From the NCBI GenBank assembly GCA_029008875.1, contig JAQXJP010000035.1, forward strand, positions 186,001 to 250,000: a stretch of DNA of 64,000 bases. The letters run 5' to 3'. Positions 33,932 to 50,748 of the stretch are shown in pieces. A model generated the notes under the pieces. It was not told the origin of the DNA. It saw only the letters and a program-made list of their open reading frames with translations, and made no database searches. The position numbers and the translations under genes are program-made. This DNA is from Lachnospiraceae bacterium (lineage in GTDB: Bacteria; Bacillota; Clostridia; Lachnospirales; Lachnospiraceae). Each line of letters begins with the position of its first letter. Position 1 is the stretch's first letter.

Positions 33932-36900
33932 TCATTTTTTATCTCGCTTTCTAGGCATATATACACAATACATATCCATCGTCTGATCATATTTAAATGA
34001 TGAAATCATCCTTTTTCTCTGTAGTCTAGCCAATATTTCTTTATTGAATTCTGTTGCCTCCACTCTTGCCTGTTTCCCCCCAATTATTTTCAACCAAGCT
34101 TCGCAATCTGTCTCGACCAGCAGTTTCAAGTACTCTTGCATTTTTTCAGGATTCATATATGGCACTTGCCCTATATACACCGCTTTCCGCACATCCTCCG
34201 GAATATTTCGATTACTAAACAAACTTTTTAGGATTTCATCACTTATTTTAAAATCATACGTTGCAATATCTGCCGCGTACAATTTCAAATTGTCCATAAT
34301 TACATCCTCGATATTATATTTCCGACTCCTATCTTTCTTACTGCTATCTTTTTTAGCATTTCCTTTCTGCACACCATAATCCCGAACAAGCAATTTGTAA
34401 TCCTCATCGTCCAAGTGATTTTTAACAATTTCATATCGTAATGAATTACTCCATTTCTTGTCTAATCGAATTGCCCCATCGTAATGAGGCAACAATTTAC
34501 GGATTTCTTTCTCTTTAAGTTCTCCGCTCTCAATAACTTCGCGAATCTCATCTTCAAATTTCCCTGCCTCTGAAGACGCAACAATTTTTTCATACTCCGC
34601 CACATCATGAGCAATAAAGTGGGACACATGATCCGGATAGATGCTCCTTAATCCAGCCAAGCAGTCCCTTGTCATATGGATTGCATCAACATCAATCAGG
34701 ATATCAAGTTTGTCTGAATCAATCCCCTCCGTAGCAAACCCCTTTACATAGCAACGATTTAATCCTGCCGCTAACCATCGGTAGACATCATTGTTCAGTT
34801 GGCTTTGGATAACTAATTCGCCAAAAAATGCCCCCCTAAGATCTCGTAAAGACTCATCTGTCGCATTTACCCCCAAATTAATATCCCCACGAATATTCCC
34901 ATTCAGGAAATCCACAAGCACATCGTCAATTTTCTCACCACAAAATTGAAAATAACACAAGATATTATCAATACTACACGTAACAACACCTGCCTGATAG
35001 AATACACTCCACTTGTCCTGTGCAACGACGCGAATATCCCGGATCTTTCCTACCCATTTGTCCAAGACGGCGGCCCTATAGTTCTCCCCAAGTCTATCGT
35101 AAAATTCCAGTATGATGCTTTCCTCATCCTCCATTACTGTTTGTCCGTCCAAAGCCAATTTAAAAAAATCATCTGGATTTTCTACAATCTTCGCGCTCAA
35201 CACATCCTCAATAGCCATACACTGCGTTAGAAAAGTTCCCTGCTGTAGTTTCGCTCCACGGATTAACCGCAGGAATTCTCCTATCATATACCGGTTCATT
35301 ATAAATAGTCCTGCTTCCAACACCATGATTCTAATCTCATCATTTAGTTCATCGGAAAAATCAACAAATTCTGTTTCCCAAGACTGCAGATTGCGAATTA
35401 TATTATTACGTTCCTGGGCGTCTGCATTCTGTAACCCAATCTGCGCAATACAATTCTTTACTTTATGACTAATTATGTGGTTTACATTGAACCCTCGGTT
35501 GTCTCCCTTTCCGTACTTTGCAATGTCCGATAATAATTGCAACGCCAGCATACTGTCTCGGCACTCCATAATGATATCTGGCCAAATCTTTAGCAAAACT
35601 TCCACCATCGTTGCCATCAAGAGATCATTTCCGCATTTCACAAATGCATTTTTCAAAAAAATATATTCTCCATTATCCCGCACATACTGCAAAATAGCCG
35701 AAGCTTTCTCCACATCCACTTCCAGTGCCTTTCCTAAAAAGCTATAGTTCATGGCAGAAACGCGTCGACATTCCTCGACGGAGTAATTTCGCAGAATCTC
35801 CTCTGGATTATCCAATGACACTTCGCAATCATTCTCTCTTCGGGCATTAAAATTTAGCACAAAATTCTTGTCAACCACAGACTGCGATACCCCATAAAAA
35901 TATGTAATGTAGTCATGATATCCCTCATTGATAATTCCCTCCTTCACTAAAAAGGAAACCAAATCAATCTTGGGATTCTCTATGTAGCTTCTATATTTTG
36001 TCATCTCATCCGAAGTAAAAGCATAGAAAACCTCTTTCTCCCCATAAAGTTCTTCTGCAGAAGCATTCACTGCACTGGCAATTTTCATATCCAGCCCCGT
36101 AATCTTTTCCTGCAGTTCCTGTATATGACGAATTGTTTGAGAATCTGGGCCAATTAATGCGATTCGATGCTGATATTCATCTGATGCTTTTATGTCCTCA
36201 ACAATATCCGCGACATTAATCCTTTCTAACTCCCACCGTTTTCCATAAATACCGCCAGAAACTACTCTTCCAACCTCAACCCGCTCTCCTTTTAATGCCA
36301 TGCTCACCAATTCAACGAAATTTGGAAAAGAATTTGCAGCCTTCCCATCTACAACATAATCATCTGCCGGAAACAATTCCACTAGCAATTGTTCTTCTCT
36401 CTTACAGCGCTCCTGCGCGATTTGACTTTTTAGCTGCTCCAACTCTGTTTCGATTTGACTTTTTTCCTCTTGATACGCCTGCACACGATAATCAACAATT
36501 CGTTCTCTCCCACCAATTACCGTCCATAGAAAGCCCTCTCCATGTTGCAACGCCAAAAAATCCTTCGGGAACAGATTCTTATAACAGATATAACCCAACA
36601 TATTACGTTTCTCCAACCCAATCTCATATTTTTCGGTGAGCTTTGAGGTATATACCAAAAACTCATTGAAAATGTTCTTGACAATGCGCATATCATCCAC
36701 ATACACACTTATTTTTTTAAGAAAGCTTTTGTCCGCCTTCTCTAAAACCAAATTATGTTGTTCAAATATCTCTATAAATTTATCATAGGAGTTGGAACCA
36801 TCAACAATCGGAATTACTGGAATAATCAAATCAAAAAACTTGGTTCTATCTTCCGATTCAAACATATCATCTCGAAGCAAATACAAAAACTTTACCTTAT

Positions 36901-37873
36901 TACTGACTTTCTTCGGTTCGAAACTCCCTTCCTTTCCATCAGCCCTTGCCTTTTCCCATTTCTTTTCATTTTTCCTCTTCTTTCTCTTCAACCACTTATC
37001 CGAATAATATGGATTTCTCCGTTTATTGATAAGATAGTTCATTTCTCTCAATTTTACGAAGATTCCATTGTCGTCAAATCGATCCAAATCATCGAAAACC
37101 ACTCCAAACACATTACTTTTTTGAAAAAGATAAATAATCTCATCTAGGTATTTGTCAAAATTCTTATCACTCTCCATTTGATTCATTGGAATCGAACTAT
37201 CCTTAAAATTGAACTGCGTAATAAACGGATGTAAGAATTGCCGACGAATAATTCGATACACTAAAAAGACTAAAGAAATACCAAAAATAATTCCCATAAG
37301 AATCAACCCTAGATTCCCACACCAAAATTTTAGAAAACTATTGTTCAGGCAAATTGCGAGAAAACCTATTTTTGAATAATTTGTCCAATACAATAATGGC
37401 AACATTATTCCTAACACTGCCGTTGTATAGCTTACAATGCTTCTTGTTGTAACAAGTTCCTTGATCATGAAACGGGTCTGTGGGATATCACACATACGCA
37501 TCTGATGTACCAGTTGATTGATAATACGACCGACTAACTGCTCGCTATCATTGCTATTACCTACACCCTTTTTTAGCCCGCCCCCATTCTGGAATCTTTC
37601 TATTTCTCTACTTGTAATATTATTGTCCATCTCTTTATTTGACGCAAAATGAGTCAATGAAACGTGGATAAATTTCTTATCCCTATGTAACTCTTCATAT
37701 GAACATATAATACTACTTTTACCAGCGCCATATCCACCAGCAAGAGCAATATTGCATACTTCCTCATCATCCATTGCTTCGTCAAGAATGGTTTCGTATA
37801 CTCCAAGATCAATGTTATTTTCTGGATTTAAATGTTCAAATTGACTGTTTTTTACCGCTTTCCTTCCTCTCAT
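33932..37873 (-). CDS. YobI/KAP-like membrane P-loop NTPase, 1313 residues
   Basis: A very large NTPase. The Walker A motif LAGGYGAGKSSIICSYEE is near residue 43, two or three membrane segments (VSYTTAVLGIMLPLLYW; LILMGIIFGISLVFLVY) interrupt the fold as in KAP NTPases, and FGVVFDDLDRFDDNGIFVKL is the Walker B region near 265. The remaining 800 residues are helical and unassigned, with a coiled coil near 440. This matches the YobI-type ATPase family, often found in accessory and defence loci. The ATG follows GAGGATAGTAA. It is inserted between two paralogous regulators and is AT-rich like the island to its right. A defence role is inference. Confidence 0.75.
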   Translation of the reverse strand: MRGRKAVKNSQFEHLNPENNIDLGVYETILDEAMDDEEVCNIALAGGYGAGKSSIICSYEELHRDKKFIHVSLTHFASNKEMDNNITSREIERFQNGGGLKKGVGNSNDSEQLVGRIINQLVHQMRMCDIPQTRFMIKELVTTRSIVSYTTAVLGIMLPLLYWTNYSKIGFLAICLNNSFLKFWCGNLGLILMGIIFGISLVFLVYRIIRRQFLHPFITQFNFKDSSIPMNQMESDKNFDKYLDEIIYLFQKSNVFGVVFDDLDRFDDNGIFVKLREMNYLINKRRNPYYSDKWLKRKKRKNEKKWEKARADGKEGSFEPKKVSNKVKFLYLLRDDMFESEDRTKFFDLIIPVIPIVDGSNSYDKFIEIFEQHNLVLEKADKSFLKKISVYVDDMRIVKNIFNEFLVYTSKLTEKYEIGLEKRNMLGYICYKNLFPKDFLALQHGEGFLWTVIGGRERIVDYRVQAYQEEKSQIETELEQLKSQIAQERCKREEQLLVELFPADDYVVDGKAANSFPNFVELVSMALKGERVEVGRVVSGGIYGKRWELERINVADIVEDIKASDEYQHRIALIGPDSQTIRHIQELQEKITGLDMKIASAVNASAEELYGEKEVFYAFTSDEMTKYRSYIENPKIDLVSFLVKEGIINEGYHDYITYFYGVSQSVVDKNFVLNFNARRENDCEVSLDNPEEILRNYSVEECRRVSAMNYSFLGKALEVDVEKASAILQYVRDNGEYIFLKNAFVKCGNDLLMATMVEVLLKIWPDIIMECRDSMLALQLLSDIAKYGKGDNRGFNVNHIISHKVKNCIAQIGLQNADAQERNNIIRNLQSWETEFVDFSDELNDEIRIMVLEAGLFIMNRYMIGEFLRLIRGAKLQQGTFLTQCMAIEDVLSAKIVENPDDFFKLALDGQTVMEDEESIILEFYDRLGENYRAAVLDKWVGKIRDIRVVAQDKWSVFYQAGVVTCSIDNILCYFQFCGEKIDDVLVDFLNGNIRGDINLGVNATDESLRDLRGAFFGELVIQSQLNNDVYRWLAAGLNRCYVKGFATEGIDSDKLDILIDVDAIHMTRDCLAGLRSIYPDHVSHFIAHDVAEYEKIVASSEAGKFEDEIREVIESGELKEKEIRKLLPHYDGAIRLDKKWSNSLRYEIVKNHLDDEDYKLLVRDYGVQKGNAKKDSSKKDRSRKYNIEDVIMDNLKLYAADIATYDFKISDEILKSLFSNRNIPEDVRKAVYIGQVPYMNPEKMQEYLKLLVETDCEAWLKIIGGKQARVEATEFNKEILARLQRKRMISSFKYDQTMDMYCVYMPRKRDKK

Positions 37874-41165: not shown

Positions 41166-42092
41166 ATGACAACCATAAATAACTACATTACGGAATATAT
41201 TGAATACTGCCAGTACAGAAAACATTTAGATATAAAATCAATAAAAGCGTACTATATTGACTTAAAACAATACAGCAATTTTTCTTCTGAATTACCATTG
41301 TGCCTAACCAAAGAAACATTAGATCTATACATAACTAACCTGCACAAACAATTCGCCCCCAAAACTATTAAGCGAAAGATTTCAAGTCTTAAAGCATTTT
41401 TTCAATACCTAGTCTATCGAGAAATATTACCAGAGAACCCCATAAATAAATTGGATCTTCATTTCCGCGAAGCAAAAATCTTACCAAAGGTTATACCTTT
41501 TCATTCTATTAGTTTGCTTTTATCTACCATGTATTCTCAAAAGAATCAAGCCAAATCGGAATATCAACTCCGCTGTCGTATCCGAGATATTGCTGTAGTT
41601 GAATTATTGTTTGCTACCGGTATGCGAATATCAGAATTATGTTCCCTAAAGCCCTCGGATATTGATATGGAAAGCCACAATATACTCATCTATGGTAAAG
41701 GCTCCAAAGAAAGAATTATACAACTCGAAAATCCAGAAGTCATTTCTGCTATAACCTCATATCGCGAAAAATTTAGAGAAGATATAAAAATTTGTGGCTT
41801 TTTCTTTGTCAATAGGCTTGGGCACAAATTGTCAGATCAGTCCGTCCGCCTCATGATAAGTCATTATTGTAATCTAGCTGGTATTGACCAACACATCACT
41901 CCACATATGTTCCGCCACTCCTTTGCCACACTTTTACTAGAGCAGGATGTTGACATACGATATATACAGCAAATGCTTGGTCACAGTTCCATTAGTACAA
42001 CAGAAATATATACTCATGTATCCAATACTAAACAAAAAGACATTCTTGTTCATAAGCATCCTCGCAACCTAATGTCAATCAATAACGGATAA
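41166..42092 (+). CDS. XerC/D-like tyrosine recombinase
   Basis: A 308-residue site-specific recombinase. The N-terminal SAM-like core-binding domain (TEYIEYCQYRKHLDIKSIKA) is followed by the catalytic domain with Arg in ATGMRISELCSLK, the Lys hairpin IYGKGSKERIIQL, HMFRHSFATLL, GHSSISTTEIYTHV and the nucleophilic Tyr. All catalytic positions appear intact. The ATG follows AAAGGAGAATGTCCACAT. The gene is AT-rich, sits at the left edge of the island, and its stop codon overlaps a 19-bp palindrome that recurs inverted 2 kb away. Probably mobilises or inverts neighbouring DNA. Confidence 0.92.
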   Translation: MTTINNYITEYIEYCQYRKHLDIKSIKAYYIDLKQYSNFSSELPLCLTKETLDLYITNLHKQFAPKTIKRKISSLKAFFQYLVYREILPENPINKLDLHFREAKILPKVIPFHSISLLLSTMYSQKNQAKSEYQLRCRIRDIAVVELLFATGMRISELCSLKPSDIDMESHNILIYGKGSKERIIQLENPEVISAITSYREKFREDIKICGFFFVNRLGHKLSDQSVRLMISHYCNLAGIDQHITPHMFRHSFATLLLEQDVDIRYIQQMLGHSSISTTEIYTHVSNTKQKDILVHKHPRNLMSINNG

Positions 42093-42852: not shown

Positions 42853-42881
42853 CTTGACACACCCATATTAGGTGTGTCAAG
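42853..42881. terminator. Hairpin between convergent kinase and TIR genes
   Basis: CTTGACACACC and GGTGTGTCAAG form a perfect 11-bp stem with a 7-nt loop, 14 bp after the kinase stop and 52 bp from the TIR gene stop. It can serve as a bidirectional terminator although T-runs are weak. Confidence 0.7.
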
Positions 42882-42933: not shown

Positions 42934-44025
42934 TTAGTCAAACATATATATAGCCTCATTCCATACTGCAAGATATTTTTTTATACATTCTTTGCCTTTT
43001 TCAGAAGAAGCACTAAACACTTCAAATTTGCTATTAGTCATAATATTAGGCATTCCATACATATCAAAGTGTGGTTTGGCATAGATTATACAATTATCGA
43101 CTCTTATGATAATTTCTTCTCGTCTGTTTGAATACATTTTAAAGCATTGCTGCAGCACTTTATTTGAACCTATAATCCTTTTCGCCCGGGAAATAGTTGT
43201 GCGAAGTTCGGATTCAAATATATCCTGGTCTTTATGGGCGTAATGCACTTCTTCAGCTTCAGGATTTAAAAATAGAACTTTAAAATCGATTCCTCCCATA
43301 TTAGGTTGAACCGCTTTTTTATCTAGATATTCAAATAAATCATTAAAATTGCCTCCAAAAAGTTTCATATTTTTTCGTCCATATATCCACAAATATTTTC
43401 CGGTAAATAGAAAGGATTGTATTATTGCCTTCCATAATTCAAAAGTTTCAAATCCAGACAAAAAGTATGCAACTTTATCCCGATAATATGGGCTGTTTAT
43501 CGTAAACTTATCAACTGCAATTAACTTTTCAACAAGATCTTCACATTGAACATCGACTTGGCGATACTTTTCCTTAATTACATGAACTTTTTCCCTGTAT
43601 TCCTTGATACAAGATTCTGTATAAGGTGAATCAGATAAGGAAAAGGCATCAAGGAAGTCTGTTTCAAAACTATCATTAGAAAAATCAATCTCTTTAGCTA
43701 TATTCATTGGATTATCAATCCATGAATGCCATAAAGAATCATGATCAAATAAAAATGGAATAACTCGTTTATGTAATCCGCTTGCATATCCAGCTTCATA
43801 TAGCAACCAAGGAGATTTTTTGTTTTCTGATGTAAAGCAAAGTATTAAGATATCGCATTGTTCAATGTGCCGGATAATCGTATCCTGAACACATTCCCCA
43901 GCATGAATGTCCTCTTCTGACATAAAAAATCTTGTGTTTGGCAACAAAGCTTCTAAAATATGCTTTGTATATTTGGCTAATTCTCCACTTTTAGATTTAG
44001 ACCAACTAATAAATATTTCTTTCAT
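42934..44025 (-). CDS. TIR-domain protein with unassigned C-terminal domain
   Basis: A 363-residue protein with an N-terminal TIR domain: KEIFISWSKSKSGELAKYTK, SEEDIHAGECVQDTIIRHIE, CDILILCFTSEN, and the putative catalytic Glu in SPWLLYEAGYASGL. Bacterial TIRs of this kind often hydrolyse or cyclise NAD+. Residues about 190-363 (for example VLFLNPEAEEVHYAHKDQDI) form a second, unrecognised alpha/beta domain that may sense a ligand. ATG 44025 follows GGAGGTGTAAAG; the track start is seven codons longer. It is separated from the main TIR operon by 222 bp of AT-rich DNA and enclosed by the 19-bp inverted repeats. Confidence 0.8.
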   Translation of the reverse strand: MKEIFISWSKSKSGELAKYTKHILEALLPNTRFFMSEEDIHAGECVQDTIIRHIEQCDILILCFTSENKKSPWLLYEAGYASGLHKRVIPFLFDHDSLWHSWIDNPMNIAKEIDFSNDSFETDFLDAFSLSDSPYTESCIKEYREKVHVIKEKYRQVDVQCEDLVEKLIAVDKFTINSPYYRDKVAYFLSGFETFELWKAIIQSFLFTGKYLWIYGRKNMKLFGGNFNDLFEYLDKKAVQPNMGGIDFKVLFLNPEAEEVHYAHKDQDIFESELRTTISRAKRIIGSNKVLQQCFKMYSNRREEIIIRVDNCIIYAKPHFDMYGMPNIMTNSKFEVFSASSEKGKECIKKYLAVWNEAIYMFD

Positions 44026-44058
44026 CTTTACACCTCCATATGCCAATTAGCAAATGAA

Positions 44059-44247: not shown

Positions 44248-45249
44248 CTAACGGTCCTGTTCAACTGACTTATTTGTCCATCGATTCCACATGTATGTAT
44301 ATGCCTCATTTCTACATCTGTGCACCAATTCTTCGACCATATCACTATAATGATGCTTCCTAGCCACATACGCGGCAATCATTAACATAATATTATTATA
44401 TGCGGTATATTCTGCGCCCAATTGTCCCAAAGAAAATATCTCCTGTTCAGAAATACTTGCATCCTTTAATGAAATCATTCTTTCATATATTTCCCTAAAA
44501 ATTCTTTCTGACTCCTCCTTACACAAAGAAAGAGAATCCAGATTTTCTATTTCCCTCTCTTGTCCTACTCCAATTTTATTAGCATCATAGTTATACAGAT
44601 GCAGGCTATCACTATAGTGAATATAGGACCCAACTTCTAAACCGAGCCATCCTGCCAATATTTCCTGCAAACTCGTAAACTGAACAAAATTGTATGGCAT
44701 TCCCAACAGTATGTCATTGCTTCGCATAATTTGAGACCACTCCAGTTTCCCATTTCTTATTTTCAACAATGAACAAACATTACATGGCACATCCGTACTT
44801 CTTGGTTGCCCATTCTCCATAGGAAAATCTTTTTCAACATCATAAATCTGTATTACCACTTGTCGACTCTCGGGAGCATTTTGCAAAACATGGTATGCTC
44901 TTTCTAACTGATCAAAGCCAAAATGAGAACGTATTCGTTTTCCATAGGCGCCATAATAGATATCCCCAGCACCTGCAAACTTTGGTAAACTCGGATTCCA
45001 ATAATTAATAACCTCTGATTGCTCTTTACCATTCATTATCCATACCAATTCTGCCAATGCAAAACCAATGCTCATCGGCGGAATACGGTCATACACCCAT
45101 TTTTGTTTTGGATTTTCTACAGAAACAAACGCATGCAACAATTCATATACGTCTCCATTTCGTCCTTTCAATGTAGTCTCTTGCTTCAATAGAATATCAG
45201 TCGCCTTTTTCCATACTTCATTGGCCGTTCTTCCTTCAATTAGCCACAT
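44248..45249 (-). CDS. Thymidylate synthase homologue
   Basis: A 333-residue ThyA-fold protein. The catalytic Cys is in STDVPCNVCSLLKI, followed by WSQIMRSNDILLGMPYNFVQ and SYIHYSDSLHLYNYDA, which match the dUMP and folate-binding motifs. PCN replaces the usual PCH after the nucleophile, and the Asn that selects uracil over cytosine (PYNF) is kept, so a dUMP-directed methylase or hydroxymethylase is plausible. The ATG follows AAGGGGAAAAAGG. It ends the six-gene TIR/base-modification operon, 21 bp below the preceding gene. Its setting points to modified-thymidine chemistry rather than housekeeping dTMP synthesis. Confidence 0.85.
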   Translation of the reverse strand: MWLIEGRTANEVWKKATDILLKQETTLKGRNGDVYELLHAFVSVENPKQKWVYDRIPPMSIGFALAELVWIMNGKEQSEVINYWNPSLPKFAGAGDIYYGAYGKRIRSHFGFDQLERAYHVLQNAPESRQVVIQIYDVEKDFPMENGQPRSTDVPCNVCSLLKIRNGKLEWSQIMRSNDILLGMPYNFVQFTSLQEILAGWLGLEVGSYIHYSDSLHLYNYDANKIGVGQEREIENLDSLSLCKEESERIFREIYERMISLKDASISEQEIFSLGQLGAEYTAYNNIMLMIAAYVARKHHYSDMVEELVHRCRNEAYTYMWNRWTNKSVEQDR

Positions 45250-45270
45250 CCTTTTTCCCCTTTCCCGATG

Positions 45271-46245
45271 TCAGGTTTGTAACTTGCTATTCACTCCCCA
45301 TTTAGGCGGATAAAATAAAACTATCTGCTCCAGTCCACGATTCTTATATTGTTGCTTAATTCTTTTCCGTCCATCCACTCCACAAATATCTGGATGTGCC
45401 ACTCGTGCATATTTGTCAGTTTCACAAAATAAGTTTTGGCAATCAATTAGCTGTAATTCCCGACCAAACAATGATTGAAAGCGCAACCCTCGTTTCTCGA
45501 ATTCCTCATTTTGTCTATCTGCCACGCATCTAATAACATCTTCATAACTGTATCCCTTTATATCCCCAAAACATTTTCGTATTCCGTTCTTCGCTCCTGG
45601 CCCAGCAACAACGAACGACATCTCACTGAAATCACACAACTCACTGTAATTAATATCAATTGCAAATTGAAATGCCAAAAAAGTTCCAAGCGTTGGGTAG
45701 CTTAATAAGACCTCATACAATTCTTTCAAACTACGTACTCTTGCAATTTTCTTCGGCAAACCAGAATTCATCATATATTCCAAAAGTTTTAAATTGTTTT
45801 GATGTTTTTTCTCAAAGCCAAAATAACTTTTTCCTGATGGCATAATATATGCAGACGAATATATACTTGCATTACAACACATTCTCTCCATCAACAACTG
45901 ATTATATCTTTCGTAATTATATGAGGAATACGTAACTTCGCCCACCGCATCCCTTATATACTCCCATGTCTCTATTTTGTTAAATAATTTAAAAAAAAGT
46001 ATCCTAAAGCATTGATCCTCTGGTGTAAAGTAATCATTCTCATAAATAACGTTTCGAATCAAATACTGACTTACTCGATCTGATGCTCTATAAGCATTTG
46101 TAAACTTGTATTTCTGAATAATCTTATCATCTGTCCATGGATAAGCTCGCCCATATAATCGATTAAAAAATACCTCTTGACGTTTTGCCGCAAAACTCCA
46201 ATATGTATCATATACAGGTGTAGGCTTCAATTCTTCAAATTTCAT
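45271..46245 (-). CDS. 5-hmdU-kinase helical-domain / thymine-pyrophosphorylase-like protein
   Basis: A 324-residue protein. The segment YWSFAAKRQEVFFNRLYG and KFTNAYRASDRVSQYLIRNV match, from memory, the family named for the helical domain of phage 5-hydroxymethyl-dU DNA kinase and for alpha-glutamyl/putrescinyl thymine pyrophosphorylases, which act in thymine hypermodification. The central part is helical and the C-terminus has a conserved-looking VAHPDICGVDGRKRIKQQY. Spacing of 4 bp to the dTMP-kinase-like gene and 21 bp to the thymidylate synthase homologue supports a joint pathway. The exact reaction cannot be assigned. Confidence 0.7.
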   Translation of the reverse strand: MKFEELKPTPVYDTYWSFAAKRQEVFFNRLYGRAYPWTDDKIIQKYKFTNAYRASDRVSQYLIRNVIYENDYFTPEDQCFRILFFKLFNKIETWEYIRDAVGEVTYSSYNYERYNQLLMERMCCNASIYSSAYIMPSGKSYFGFEKKHQNNLKLLEYMMNSGLPKKIARVRSLKELYEVLLSYPTLGTFLAFQFAIDINYSELCDFSEMSFVVAGPGAKNGIRKCFGDIKGYSYEDVIRCVADRQNEEFEKRGLRFQSLFGRELQLIDCQNLFCETDKYARVAHPDICGVDGRKRIKQQYKNRGLEQIVLFYPPKWGVNSKLQT

Positions 46246-46249
46246 AACT

Positions 46250-46864
46250 TTAATCTGCTCCCACTATGCAATCATATATTTTTGCTACCACCGCCTCTAT
46301 TCTTCCATTATTTTCGATCAAAACACTTTCTGATTCCTTACCTGCCAACTCCCTATAAAGTTCTAAAATTTTTTTATCCTTTTCCTCTTCATAATCCCGT
46401 TGGCGCAATTCACGTTCTATCAAAAAAATCTTTTTAACATCCAAATCTCTCCATTTCATTAACTCCACCTCAAGAATTGCTTGTACAACACTTTCATCCA
46501 TTCCACTTGCTATTCCATATGCATAAGTAGACCACCAGTAACGATCTAACAAAACAAGAGATTGTTTCTGATTCAATTCTCTTAATTTCCGATCAATCAA
46601 ATCAATATGAGCCGAAATATGCAGTAATTGCAAACTAGTTTCATTTAATTTTTCATCAAAATATCTAGCTTGATTATGATGAATATCGTAAACCAGATTG
46701 CCTAATGTTCTAGGCTCATTTCCTGGAAATGTAACGACCACGCAATCACATCCCACAGATTCATATATCTTTTCCTTTAATTTACCAACAATAGTAGTTT
46801 TTCCAACATTATCTATTCCCTCAAACACATATATTCCTGAATGCTTCTCGTTTTGGCGTTCCAT
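46250..46864 (-). CDS. Thymidylate-kinase-like P-loop protein
   Basis: A 204-residue dTMP-kinase-family protein with Walker A FEGIDNVGKTTIVGKLKEK, a DRx-type motif in LVLLDRYWWSTYAYGIASGM, and a lid region RELRQRDYEEEKDKK. Length matches Tmk. The LDRYWWS loop is typical of accessory Tmk-like kinases found with base-modification genes. It could phosphorylate dTMP or a modified deoxynucleotide. The gene lies 11 bp after the TIR-SLOG gene and 4 bp before the next one. Confidence 0.83.
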   Translation of the reverse strand: MERQNEKHSGIYVFEGIDNVGKTTIVGKLKEKIYESVGCDCVVVTFPGNEPRTLGNLVYDIHHNQARYFDEKLNETSLQLLHISAHIDLIDRKLRELNQKQSLVLLDRYWWSTYAYGIASGMDESVVQAILEVELMKWRDLDVKKIFLIERELRQRDYEEEKDKKILELYRELAGKESESVLIENNGRIEAVVAKIYDCIVGAD

Positions 46865-46875
46865 TGTTCTTACCC

Positions 46876-48714
46876 CTATCCTATAATACTCAATAATCGT
46901 TTTATCATCAGACGATGATTCATATTATAAAATAACCCCTCATTTATCGATTTATCCCATGGATTTATACTTGACCAATCTTCACTTTTTAGTTTTTCAA
47001 AAGCATACTCACTAGATCTTCCACCTACAGTACCAACCAACGCCACTGGGATATTTGCCCTTTGGGCCAAGGCAATTTCAATATCTACCCCCTGTTGTAA
47101 TTTATCAGATTTGATTTTTCCTCCCAGACAAATTAACAGCTCACTTGCCTCTCCGCAGATCATTCTTTCCCTCATTTTCGAAATATTATCTGATAATATA
47201 AGTGTACATTTCTCCTCCAAGTCATCAATATTATACTGATACAAGTACTCTCTAGACATATGCATTTCAATAGAATACTTCATATCAGAAGCGTATAAAC
47301 TTCCAATATCAAATATAAGTCTTTGAAATGTAGGATGAGCACCGAAAACAAGTGTGTAGCCATTCTTGATAATTTCTCTAGAATACACAACTAAAGCTTC
47401 CAGCAAAGACGCTTGGTAAATCTCATCACAATCTGGAAACGCCCCTGACAAAATAATCCGCTTATTACGTCTTTTTCTTTTTTCACCTGAAACATTTTCC
47501 AAGTTCATCAAATAATCATCATAATTTTCTTCTATTATTTTTGATTCTAAAATATGTTTATCACGACATCCATGATTAGATAGCAAAAATAGCCGATCAT
47601 GTGTGTCATAGCTTTTCTCATTTTTTACTCTAGCAATAAACTTCTGTATATCATCTTCTTTCGGATTTCGTCCAAAACACTGTATATAATGTTTTCGTAT
47701 ACCAGAATCATATAAATCTCTCGTTTTTTCATGATATTCAATTTCATATGCTAATACGGAACTATTATCATTTGCCAGTTTTATTTTTCCCGCGCAACTC
47801 ATTTCGGCCAGATATTCAATATATGAGTATACCTGATTAGATGAATTCATAATAAGTTCAAAACACTTATCCTCGACTTCATCCACAATTTCCTCAAGTC
47901 TATCTTTATCCTCAAATTCTTCACTTCTATAGCAGAGAACCGGTGCTTGACCAGGGCGTATTTCCATCTTGTCATATGACGCGTTATCAATTTGAATCCA
48001 TAAAACCGGAATATCATTTACAAGTGCATAACATAATTCTTTCATAATATATGTAGAATATTGTGCCTGTTCAGTCTGCAAAAAAATTACTACATCACTT
48101 ACTGCCAGATGCTTATCGATATCCGCTTGTGCATCATCACCCACATTGACATTAACAACATCCCTGTATACATTTCGTTCTCTGGTTAACAAGCGCAGTC
48201 CATCGGCCAATTTTGCTGCCACATGCTCTCCATCTATTCTTCTATGACTGATAAAATAGAGAACCTCATCTCGATAGAGGGGAGATAATGTTTGTGCTAC
48301 AATTTTTCGTGCAAATATTTGTGCGATTGCCTTTATATTATTCCTCAACGGATTTCTATTTTCTTTCCGACTGCAAACATCAAAACTTTGCCTATCTGTA
48401 ACCGGTTCTGGTGGTCTTCTACATTCAGGAGTCCCTTCTACTGCAATAGCCCATATTCTACTTTGCGCATCATTATATTTTCCTATTAAGTTACGTATTT
48501 CATCTGAATATTCCCCTTTTTCAGATGTAAAAAACACAAGTATATCATTTTTATCTACCTCTTGTGCCAATAATTGCTTTATTTGAAATGACGTTGAAAT
48601 ATACTGCACATTAGCAACATATGAGTTTAATATTTCATAACATTCCCTGTAGAATTCTGTAGCATCTTTCAACTCTGTCATTGTAAGTTCTGGATTACAG
48701 AAAATAACATTCAT
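46876..48714 (-). CDS. TIR-SLOG fusion protein
   Basis: A 612-residue protein with three parts. Residues 1-150 form an alpha/beta domain reminiscent of a degenerate TIR (DKNDILVFFTSEKGEYSDEI). Residues about 152-285 are a TIR domain (VLYFISHRRIDGEHVAAKLA, SDVVIFLQTEQAQYS, putative catalytic Glu in YIMKELCYALV). After a helical linker, residues about 415-612 resemble a SLOG Rossmann domain (RIILSGAFPDCDEIYQASLL, ASELLICLGGKIKSDKLQQG, VGTVGGRSSEYAFE). SLOG domains in Thoeris ThsA bind NAD-derived signals made by TIR enzymes. Having both in one chain suggests signal production and sensing together. The ATG follows GGGGGAATAATT. Confidence 0.78.
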   Translation of the reverse strand: MNVIFCNPELTMTELKDATEFYRECYEILNSYVANVQYISTSFQIKQLLAQEVDKNDILVFFTSEKGEYSDEIRNLIGKYNDAQSRIWAIAVEGTPECRRPPEPVTDRQSFDVCSRKENRNPLRNNIKAIAQIFARKIVAQTLSPLYRDEVLYFISHRRIDGEHVAAKLADGLRLLTRERNVYRDVVNVNVGDDAQADIDKHLAVSDVVIFLQTEQAQYSTYIMKELCYALVNDIPVLWIQIDNASYDKMEIRPGQAPVLCYRSEEFEDKDRLEEIVDEVEDKCFELIMNSSNQVYSYIEYLAEMSCAGKIKLANDNSSVLAYEIEYHEKTRDLYDSGIRKHYIQCFGRNPKEDDIQKFIARVKNEKSYDTHDRLFLLSNHGCRDKHILESKIIEENYDDYLMNLENVSGEKRKRRNKRIILSGAFPDCDEIYQASLLEALVVYSREIIKNGYTLVFGAHPTFQRLIFDIGSLYASDMKYSIEMHMSREYLYQYNIDDLEEKCTLILSDNISKMRERMICGEASELLICLGGKIKSDKLQQGVDIEIALAQRANIPVALVGTVGGRSSEYAFEKLKSEDWSSINPWDKSINEGLFYNMNHRLMIKRLLSIIG

Positions 48715-48716
48715 AA

Positions 48717-49331
48717 TTATTCCCCCTTATAATGTGCAAATTGTCCTGTTTTTCTACTGTAAGGAGTCCCCTGAACTCCCTTTTTATAATTATCTTGCAT
48801 GTAACTTATAAAATTGTTTATAACATCAGTATCTCTACTTACTCTATGACCAATACCATGTGCTATTAGACTGTCAAATTTCTTTGGAATAGAAATTGCA
48901 TTATTGCCAAAATAAAAAAATTCTGTTGCAACCAACACTCTATCGGTTCCCGTATCTCGATTCAGATTAATATAGTTCGTACTTCCATCTGCCATACTAT
49001 GATGCGATAATTCCTGCACCCAGTTCATTCCGTCGTGATGATATATATTATCCCCATACATATGTATCACACCTTTACTAAAGACCGGACGCTTACTTAT
49101 AAATCTACTATCATCCCAGTATTGATCAAATGTAAGTGTTTCCTCTACCCGCATTAAAACCACCAATTTCTCATGTACTATTGTCCCCGCGGCCCCAAAT
49201 GCTGCGACCCAATCCCCAACTTGCGCACACCTTCTAATGACAGGTTTACAGGTCGCCAATGTGCAATATCTAAAATACGGATTCGGTGCAAATCCATAAT
49301 CTCTCGGTATAACATATGAATACAATTTCAT
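48717..49331 (-). CDS. Nucleotide modification associated domain 2 (Nmad2) protein
   Basis: A 204-residue protein that matches Nmad2 as I know it: KLYSYVIPRDYGFAPNPYFR, CTLATCKPVIRRCAQVGDWV, TFDQYWDDSRFISKRP and YGDNIYHHDGMNWVQELSHH. Nmad domains were named for their association with DNA base-hypermodification gene clusters in phages and bacteria; the biochemical role is not established. The ATG follows GGAGTATAAAAACT. Intervals to neighbours are 13 and 2 bp, firmly within the operon. Confidence 0.85.
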   Translation of the reverse strand: MKLYSYVIPRDYGFAPNPYFRYCTLATCKPVIRRCAQVGDWVAAFGAAGTIVHEKLVVLMRVEETLTFDQYWDDSRFISKRPVFSKGVIHMYGDNIYHHDGMNWVQELSHHSMADGSTNYINLNRDTGTDRVLVATEFFYFGNNAISIPKKFDSLIAHGIGHRVSRDTDVINNFISYMQDNYKKGVQGTPYSRKTGQFAHYKGE

Positions 49332-49344
49332 AGTTTTTATACTC

Positions 49345-49827
49345 CTAACATGTATAATGATTCATGCCCATAGGATTACTTTCCCTAGGAGTCCCATCAG
49401 GTTTTTCCCAATCCATATCCTCCCCATCAATAGCTCGAACAATCTTATCCCCATTCCATCCAACCAGTGCATGTCCATATACGTTCAGTTCCGCTGGAAC
49501 ATCCTCTTCTTTAGCTCCCTGTAAGTAAACCCCAACAACTCTTTTTCCCATTTCACCAGCTGTTTTAATTTCCCAGTTTACATAATCACTTTTTGCTGTA
49601 TCTTTTCCGATAAGCACAACAACAGTTCCCGCCCATACCATTTGGGGCTTAATTAGTTCATGCTTAATATACTGCTCATTTGTCGCATTATTTTTCAATT
49701 TACTCTCGTATATAGAACTGTCCCTCATACTTATTCCATGTTTACCAATAAGACTTTTAAATGCTTCAATTTTATCTGCATCGTTATGCTGATGAGATAC
49801 AAAAATATTTTTAATTTCGTCTGCCAT
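49345..49827 (-). CDS. ThsB-like TIR protein (TIR-like DUF1863/MTH538 type)
   Basis: A 160-residue single-domain protein: NIFVSHQHNDADKIEAFKSL, a long helix with NEQYIKHELIKPQMV, TVVVLIGKDTAKSDYVNWEI (putative catalytic Glu in NWEI) and KRVVGVYLQGAKEEDVPAEL. This is the small TIR-like type that includes Thoeris ThsB, which senses phage infection and makes a cyclic ADP-ribose isomer. ATG 49827 (MADEIKN) follows GGGGGCACTT; the track start is seven codons earlier. First intact gene of the six-gene operon. No canonical ThsA (SIR2-SLOG) is nearby; the TIR-SLOG protein is the only SLOG candidate. Confidence 0.82.
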   Translation of the reverse strand: MADEIKNIFVSHQHNDADKIEAFKSLIGKHGISMRDSSIYESKLKNNATNEQYIKHELIKPQMVWAGTVVVLIGKDTAKSDYVNWEIKTAGEMGKRVVGVYLQGAKEEDVPAELNVYGHALVGWNGDKIVRAIDGEDMDWEKPDGTPRESNPMGMNHYTC

Positions 49828-49894
49828 AAGTGCCCCCAATTTATACAAAAACTTTATTCTGTCAAACAGCTTCGTTTATCCGTTCCATATGACT

Positions 49895-50748
49895 TTATAT
49901 TTCCTTCCCATGTAAAATTTCATTTTCTACATTTGTTAGCAACTTAATGCCCGCTAATTGTAAATTGTCAATTTCCCCATGTTCATATAAGTCAATAAAA
50001 TACTTTTCCCTAAGTCCTGATTTGTCATACAAAATTCCTAATTCCCATGAACACCAAGGTCTTATATAGTAATTCCCGCCAATTTTCAACTCACTATTAG
50101 GAGTTCGTAGAAACACCAAATTTTCGGATTCATTTAATGCTTTATGTAACTTTTTCTTTAATAAAATACCCTCCTCTTCTTTTCCATTATTCATCCAATC
50201 TACGAATAGATAAATATTGTATTTTTGAAAGAAAAAAACAGCGCTATTGTATACAATTTGTCTTCATATGCATATGAGAGAAACACTTGCTTCTTTTTTA
50301 TATAATTTGCTTCTAAATATTTTTTGTATGCATTTCTTTTATATTCATTAAGATTCCAATCGTCATCTTCAAAAATTGATTTATTCTGTTTGACTATGTC
50401 TTCTATTATTCCGTCATTAAAATCACTTAATGCTTTTATCAATGCATTAAATCGATTAGGCAGTTTTTTCTTTCTGTTTTCTATTGAAATCAATTCGCTT
50501 AATAGTTTTCCATAATTTGGAATATTCCTTGCTTCTTCTAAATTATATCCTTCGTCAACTATCATCTGAAGGGCATTAAAAAACGCTGCTTCTCGATCTT
50601 CCAATACATTTTCCCGCAAAAAAAGTGGCTCGATATTTCTTAGTATTCTTTCATTTAGAGCAAAGAGAACTTTTATTTCCATGATTAATCTAACATTATC
50701 ACTTTGTAACAAACTCGCATATACATTTGCTCTGCCCAGTATTTCCAT
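49895..50748 (-). pseudogene. Frameshifted TIR-domain gene (T7 homopolymer)
   Basis: The track shows two ORFs, 50200-50748 and 49895-50194, that are one gene. The first ends in QVFLSYAYEDKLYTIALFF, the beginning of a TIR domain, then shifts. Adding one T to the seven-T tract (plus-strand A7 at 50232-50238) restores QKYNIYLFVDWMNNG and joins the second ORF, which has the rest of the TIR including the putative catalytic Glu in WCSWELGILYDKSG. The restored protein would be about 284 residues: a 150-residue helical N-terminal region plus a C-terminal TIR. The ATG follows AAGGATAAGACT. It may be a true pseudogene, phase-variable, or a sequencing error. Confidence 0.85.

Follow-up and report, generated by a model that had tools for sequence, protein, structure and literature searches.

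A TIR-SLOG operon of a Lachnospiraceae bacterium carries a probable dUMP 5-hydroxymethylase and a candidate modified-base reader

The 64,000-nucleotide stretch of DNA analyzed here (the window) belongs to a bacterial genome of 2.63 Mb in 43 contigs that is 93% complete. It contains a series of minus-strand genes arranged head to tail from position 50748 to position 44248, together with a further TIR gene and a hairpin, as follows:

50200..50748, minus strand: TIR-like gene, N-terminal half, ends ...VFLSYAYEDKLY... (ORF list, read by eye)
49895..50194, minus strand: TIR-like gene, C-terminal half after the frameshift (ORF list, read by eye)
49345..49848, minus strand: ThsB-type TIR protein (ThsB_TIR; catalytic Glu kept)
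48717..49331, minus strand: Nmad2 protein, candidate modified-base reader (PF18753, 1.2e-62; predicted fold)
46876..48714, minus strand: TIR + SLOG (STALD) protein, probable NAD+-consuming effector (profile searches, Glu motif)
46250..46864, minus strand: TMPK-like nucleotide kinase, 204 aa (Pfam)
45271..46245, minus strand: HMUDK_hel protein, 324 aa, 5-hmdU DNA kinase helical domain (Pfam, predicted fold)
44248..45249, minus strand: TS-superfamily enzyme, 333 aa, probable dUMP 5-hydroxymethylase (Pfam, active-site residues, tree)
42934..44046, minus strand: further TIR protein, TIR_2 (ORF list, Pfam)
42853..42881, minus strand: terminator-like hairpin with a 13-bp stem

The operon runs from the frameshifted TIR-like gene through the ThsB-type TIR, Nmad2, TIR+STALD-SLOG, TMPK-like kinase, and HMUDK_hel genes to the TS gene. 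Between the ThsB-type TIR gene and the TS gene the gaps measure 2 to 21 bases, with 4 bases separating the TMPK-like kinase from HMUDK_hel and 21 bases separating HMUDK_hel from TS. The TIR_2 gene lies on the same strand, 201 bases downstream of the TS gene, and the hairpin is the probable end of the transcription unit. In the TIR-like gene at 49895-50748 (about 285 aa), the reading frame shifts at a run of T near 50230; the gene may be a pseudogene, or the shift may be an error of assembly. The fetched loci contained no related protein. The three genes named by the original prediction are present in the ORF list on the minus strand, exactly where it had placed them. The neighbors of the TS gene, which it had described as a Tmk-like kinase and a helical-domain protein, match the Pfam families Thymidylate_kin (2.6e-15) and HMUDK_hel (7.8e-107), and the TIR operon in which it had set them is borne out by the presence of ThsB_TIR, TIR+STALD-SLOG, and a third TIR.

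The operon region has a GC content of 32 to 38%, while the left end of the window has about 50%. HMUDK_hel turned up in no other genome among 392 of the order, and Nmad2 occurred in one other genome among 398 sampled from the phylum. The system is rare and was probably acquired. A Tmn-like defense protein (PADLOC, 1.7e-50; window 33932-37873, minus strand) and a XerD-like recombinase (window 41166-42092, plus strand) lie near the operon, as in a mobile defense island.

The Glu motif of TIR domains is kept in all three intact TIR genes, as VNWEI in the ThsB-type protein, MKELCYAL in the TIR-SLOG protein, and LYEAGYAS in the protein encoded at 42934-44046. The ThsB-type protein (PADLOC ThsB, 1.6e-52) more likely starts at an internal ATG (MADEIKN...). 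The TIR-SLOG protein, for which a sequence search retrieved no relative in the PDB, probably acts as the NAD+-consuming effector. Thoeris type III was considered as a class for the operon and rejected, as ThcA (20.6 of 110 bits) and ThcB4 (49.5 of 220 bits) missed their cut-offs.

The TS homologue matches the Pfam family Thymidylat_synt (3.4e-24) and lies far under each NCBIfam thymidylate synthase equivalog cut-off. Its motifs, ...DVPCNVC... and ...GMPYNFVQF..., display the active site originally described, with PCN in place of PCH and with the catalytic Cys and the uracil-selecting Asn kept, the latter aligning with N177 of E. coli. With residues numbered as in E. coli ThyA, TS proteins of the window type retain, with few exceptions, E58, Y94, R126, C146, R166, D169, N177, H207, and Y209, and they carry L or Y in place of W80, F or Y in place of W83, Asn at residue 147, and Gln in place of R127. 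The window TS itself has L at 80 and F at 83, whereas the ThyAs compared have W80 and W83, with H, A, or C at 147. In thymidylate synthases, Trp80 keeps water from the methylene intermediate. The combination of N147, non-Trp residues at 80 and 83, and N177 is present in nearly all full-length TS proteins of the window type, and also in M6 gp58, phiMAM1, and phiW-14 gp231 (annotation: similar to dUMP hydroxymethylase). The set of N147, non-Trp80, and N177 occurs in these three phage enzymes, in BL4, and in a Kuttervirus, while MilA and other CMP-type enzymes carry T147 and D177. The closest solved structure is the CMP 5-hydroxymethylase MilA (5b6d, 3.5e-21), and the best ThyA scores 5.8e-13.

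The phylogenetic placement that had been proposed as a check sets the window TS outside ThyA, with 21 ThyAs on one side of the tree (branch support, 100/99). The window TS lies inside a 16-member clade (100/100) that spans Bacillota, Pseudomonadota, Myxococcota, Acidobacteriota, Chloroflexota, and others. This clade falls on the same side of the tree as the characterized phage enzymes, with nesting supports of 94/88 and 86/92 only. The tree excludes L079 and L087, two ORFs falsely tagged as TS by a loose model, and its "defense" label takes in two viral contigs, L115 and L118, which are likely to be phages. The branches of T4 gp42 and PEi20 gp42 are very long, and it is uncertain which residue of these two proteins aligns with position 177. 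The host genome has a second TS, a ThyA (C17:10480-11292, 2.5e-87), and no ThyX hit. In 35 genomes of the same genus the matches, where any, are of the ThyA type only, with about 28% identity to the window TS. The finding that would have spoken against the original prediction, a protein grouping within ThyA as the sole thymidylate synthase of its host, is contradicted by the separate ThyA and by the tree.

A housekeeping ThyA is ruled out by the active-site signature, the tree, and the second ThyA in the genome, and a CMP or dCMP hydroxymethylase is ruled out by Asn177, as Asp177 would be expected. Judged from its sequence, the window gene in all likelihood encodes a dUMP 5-hydroxymethylase and not a thymidylate synthase. 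Against this assignment stands R127, the phosphate-binding Arg of ThyA, which is Gln in the window TS. A dCTP deaminase-like gene is present in several TS operons, and such an enzyme would be the supplier of dUMP/dUTP that a dUMP hydroxymethylase would need.

The TMPK-like domain is fused to the N terminus of HMUDK_hel in about 15 related loci, which indicates that the two separate genes of the window are likely halves of one functional unit. The pairing expected of a 5-hmdU kinase is found, with the HMUDK_hel domain present and the P-loop kinase encoded by the adjacent gene in the window and fused in relatives. The predicted structure of HMUDK_hel (pLDDT 96) has as its best VIA match Qng1, the queuosine salvage enzyme DUF2419 (Z 10.4, where for helical models a Z under about 13 possibly reflects mere common arrangement), followed by HhH DNA glycosylases. 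These matches are suggestive of a glycosylase-like fold. When the profiles of HMUDK_hel and HhH-GPD glycosylases were compared, the signal did not exceed that of controls, so this suggestion comes from the structure matches only. A Q_salvage family search in the phylum returned zero matches, with controls at zero as well, and so carries no information. The TS matches 1,923 phage records and HMUDK has matches in 438; viral contigs searched with the TS protein alone gave no match.

A tblastn search of 50,697 phage records gave no match for Nmad2. The protein belongs to the immune side and is not part of the phage biosynthetic pathway. It also has no relative in the PDB by sequence search. Its predicted structure (pLDDT 88) matches ASCH, EVE, THYN1, McrB-N, and YTH structures weakly (best Foldseek E value, 0.01; VIA Z 7.7), but all of these belong to one superfamily, so that the matches are coherent. 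EVE and YTH domains bind modified bases (PMC7641849). From its modeled fold, Nmad2 is a candidate modified-base reader of the PUA/EVE/ASCH/YTH-like type.

Eighty genome loci were found with an HMUDK alignment and then mapped. TS is encoded directly downstream of HMUDK for 18 of 21 TS-tagged genes, about 20 related loci show this order, and TIR is encoded directly upstream of Nmad2 for 18 of 20 Nmad2 genes. Both orders are spread over many phyla, and both adjacencies are far beyond chance. The TS position may instead be taken by MazG, a radical SAM protein, or dCTP deaminase, and the TIRs have SLOG domains of LD_cluster2 or STALD type with them, either fused or encoded separately. On four plasmids (L138, L139, L140, and L141), Nmad2 and TIR occur with MazG and a UDG-family protein, HMUDK being replaced, and in some of them patatin, SIR2, TIR, or SLOG proteins are close by. 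Because many related operons lack TS and have MazG, radical SAM, or MazG plus uracil-DNA glycosylase, hydroxymethyl-dU is not the sole universal signal. On a Sinorhizobium plasmid (L143:6498-11901), the order is TIR, Nmad2, TS (532 aa, PCN), O-methyltransferase, and HMUDK, a cassette that may take the base one step further.

Other arrangements of these genes were also observed. At L034:7520-12324 and about 50 other loci, the order is ACP, HTH, ImmA/IrrE, in some cases a C1 peptidase, a 277-aa protein, HMUDK, and MazG, radical SAM, or TS; the 277-aa protein has no Pfam hit, and the cassette has a holo-ACP synthase gene. Leptospira and Agrobacterium plasmids (L120:5980-9780 and L122:5977-8973) carry a CMP-type TS homologue (D177, T147) together with ImmA/IrrE and a small hypothetical gene, which may represent such a system adapted to cytosine. 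A CMP-type TS on a Streptococcus salivarius plasmid (L121:1594-11434) is accompanied by AAA ATPase, PqqD, phosphotransferase, CYTH, and QueA-like genes, in what looks like a nucleoside natural-product cluster. On an E. coli IncHI plasmid (L119:5005-7936), metallophosphoesterase and MazG genes accompany a PCN-type TS, a possible further dUMP hydroxymethylase operon.

A TIR-Nmad2 pair related to that of the window was found in 16 of 5,426 E. coli genomes. The two loci examined (L133 and L134) have the order TS, DNMK, HMUDK, ThsB TIR, Nmad2; they adjoin conjugation-type genes and have SLOG, TIR, and two more ThsB-type genes in their vicinity. The best matches of the E. coli TS, HMUDK, and kinase are phage proteins, in phiMAM1 for TS and HMUDK (36%, 5e-69, and 30%, 7e-50, respectively) and in a Kuttervirus for the kinase (32%, 2e-22). 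Compared with the window proteins, the E. coli Nmad2 is 49% identical and the E. coli TIR 37%. With phage-like writers on one side and a window-like TIR and Nmad2 on the other, one reader-TIR pair has been combined with two cassettes that differ in source but share their chemistry. No other observation argues as strongly that the system needs hydroxymethyl-dU chemistry and not a supply of dTMP. The resemblance of the three window genes to the start of the phage hydroxymethyl-dU pathway, as originally proposed, is upheld: the active-site signature and the tree agree on it, and so do the fusions of Tmk with HMUDK and the phage-like version in E. coli. An E. coli unit with TS, dNMPk, 5hmdUk, and NMAD was cloned by DefensePredictor and reported as anti-phage in 2026 (PMC13092281, Fig. 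3C); the main text of that paper gives no mechanism for the unit and does not use the word TIR. From gene content only, we infer that operons of the L133/L134 type match this validated unit. The window operon is very probably part of an anti-phage system.

In the proposed mechanism, a cassette that writes hydroxymethyl-dU is coupled to an alarm made up of reader, TIR, and SLOG. As its active site and position in the tree suggest, the TS homologue would convert dUMP and methylene-tetrahydrofolate to 5-hydroxymethyl-dUMP. The TMPK-like kinase and HMUDK_hel, which the fusions suggest together form one 5-hmdU kinase, would handle hydroxymethyl-dUMP, or the base once it is in DNA. Nmad2, given its predicted fold and its absence from phages, would read the modified base or nucleotide and gate the ThsB-type TIR, which by analogy with Thoeris would make a signal of the ADP-ribose type; this signal would activate the TIR-SLOG effector and lead to depletion of NAD+. 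The likeliest logic, which falls somewhat short of an even chance, is that the cassette makes a self mark that is read by Nmad2. That a modified base read by Nmad2 is the gate is a slightly more tentative proposal. This mark-and-reader model is ranked first on the strength of the predicted fold of Nmad2 and of the description of phage HMUDK as an enzyme that works on DNA (PMC6449724). The ranking is weak, since the variants with MazG and UDG suit a nucleotide or base messenger at least equally well. Against the model, a mark based on dNTPs would label phage DNA made in the cell too. Models of a self mark, an alarm nucleotide, and a decoy all fit, and the choice between mark and alarm is a matter of interpretation.

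In the alarm model, the cassette would make modified dUMP upon infection, HMUDK_hel would free or process the base, the ThsB TIR would couple the base to ADP-ribose by base exchange, and SLOG would sense the conjugate. Qng1, the best match of HMUDK_hel ahead of the HhH DNA glycosylases, is a nucleotide glycosidase, and a uracil-DNA-glycosylase-family protein takes the place of HMUDK_hel beside MazG, TIR, and Nmad2 on the four plasmids. Moreover, ThsB TIRs perform base exchange, His-ADPR is a known TIR signal (PMC11204291), and SLOG effectors are typical signal receivers. The modest helical Z score, the profile comparison that did no better than its controls, the description of phage 5hmdU kinases as working on DNA, and the several natural bases that EcThsB1 does not use all speak against this model, which we consider rather unlikely. 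Its boldest form would be a new class of immune messenger, in which a 5-hydroxymethyluracil nucleotide from the cassette has its base released or activated by HMUDK_hel (in sister systems, by the UDG-family protein), joined to ADP-ribose by the TIR, and read by SLOG. This is a long shot; if true, sister systems in which MazG, radical SAM, or an O-methyltransferase stands in for TS would make conjugates of other bases.

Equally improbable is lethal incorporation or a guarded decoy, where hydroxymethyl-dUTP in phage DNA would be excised or sensed, or a constitutive modified nucleotide would hold TIR-SLOG off until the phage depletes it. Glycosylases that attack modified phage DNA do defend bacteria (PMC11078745), the decoy principle has been shown for Panoptes (PMC12657218), and a TMPK-like or dNMP kinase would move the nucleotide toward the triphosphate. 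However, no sequence feature sets this explanation apart from the other models, and to bear the repair cost of hydroxymethyl-dU in its DNA the host would require a tolerance factor, none of which is seen here. An ordinary or backup thymidylate synthase, raising the dTMP supply for the element or during infection, is very improbable: the TS fold and catalytic Cys are kept, but Trp80 and Trp83 are lost, residue 147 is Asn, the protein is remote from ThyA in the tree, the operon partners are base-modification and TIR proteins, and the host has its housekeeping ThyA, with only ThyA-type matches or none in the 35 genomes of its genus. Chance neighbors, that is, a phage-derived modification cassette inserted next to an unrelated TIR operon, are hardly credible even with the clearly phage-like E. 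coli cassette, as the association is seen again and again in many phyla with cassettes of different source and the window operon has gaps of only 2 to 21 bases.

The class of enzyme and the domains were known before, and a unit of identical gene content was known to act against phages. What is new is that the enzyme is assigned as a dUMP hydroxymethylase, that writer cassettes of separate source surround a reader-TIR pair that stays constant, that Nmad2 is missing from phages and probably has a reader fold, and that the wider family follows a slot logic. With the writer-reader mechanism as the preferred reading, a phage route to hydroxymethyl-dU would be used by bacteria inside an alarm-type immune operon, giving a testable account for a validated E. 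coli system for which the main text of its report offers no mechanism. The recurring slots (TS/MazG/radical SAM/dCTP deaminase, HMUDK_hel/UDG, Nmad2-TIR, and SLOG effector) suggest a family of systems where a made-to-order base or nucleotide decides TIR firing.

With respect to known systems, the DefensePredictor unit, from the gene classes given in PMC13092281, has TS, nucleotide kinase, HMUDK, and NMAD in common with the window. In comparison with the matching E. coli operons, the window has a TMPK-like kinase and not a T4-type DNMK, its TS belongs to a different clade, its effector is a fused TIR-STALD protein, and its host is a Gram-positive gut bacterium whose nearest relatives are Lachnospiraceae. 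In MilA (5b6d), the residue for cytosine is Asp and the catalytic Cys is followed by Thr, whereas the window TS has Asn at both positions. Phage hydroxymethyl-dU pathways (phiW-14, ViI-like, and M6) share with the window a TS of the dUMP hydroxymethylase type, a nucleotide kinase, and an HMUDK-type gene, but they are without Nmad2 and serve genome-wide modification, whereas the window genes sit with TIR and SLOG in a bacterium. Thoeris likewise combines a ThsB-type TIR with a SLOG-bearing, NAD+-related effector. The window matches Thoeris type I in the ThsB-type TIR but not in the SIR2-SLOG ThsA, as its SLOG protein carries a TIR; the Thoeris effector is SIR2-SLOG or Macro, that of the window is TIR-SLOG, and to this framework the window adds base-modification enzymes and Nmad2.
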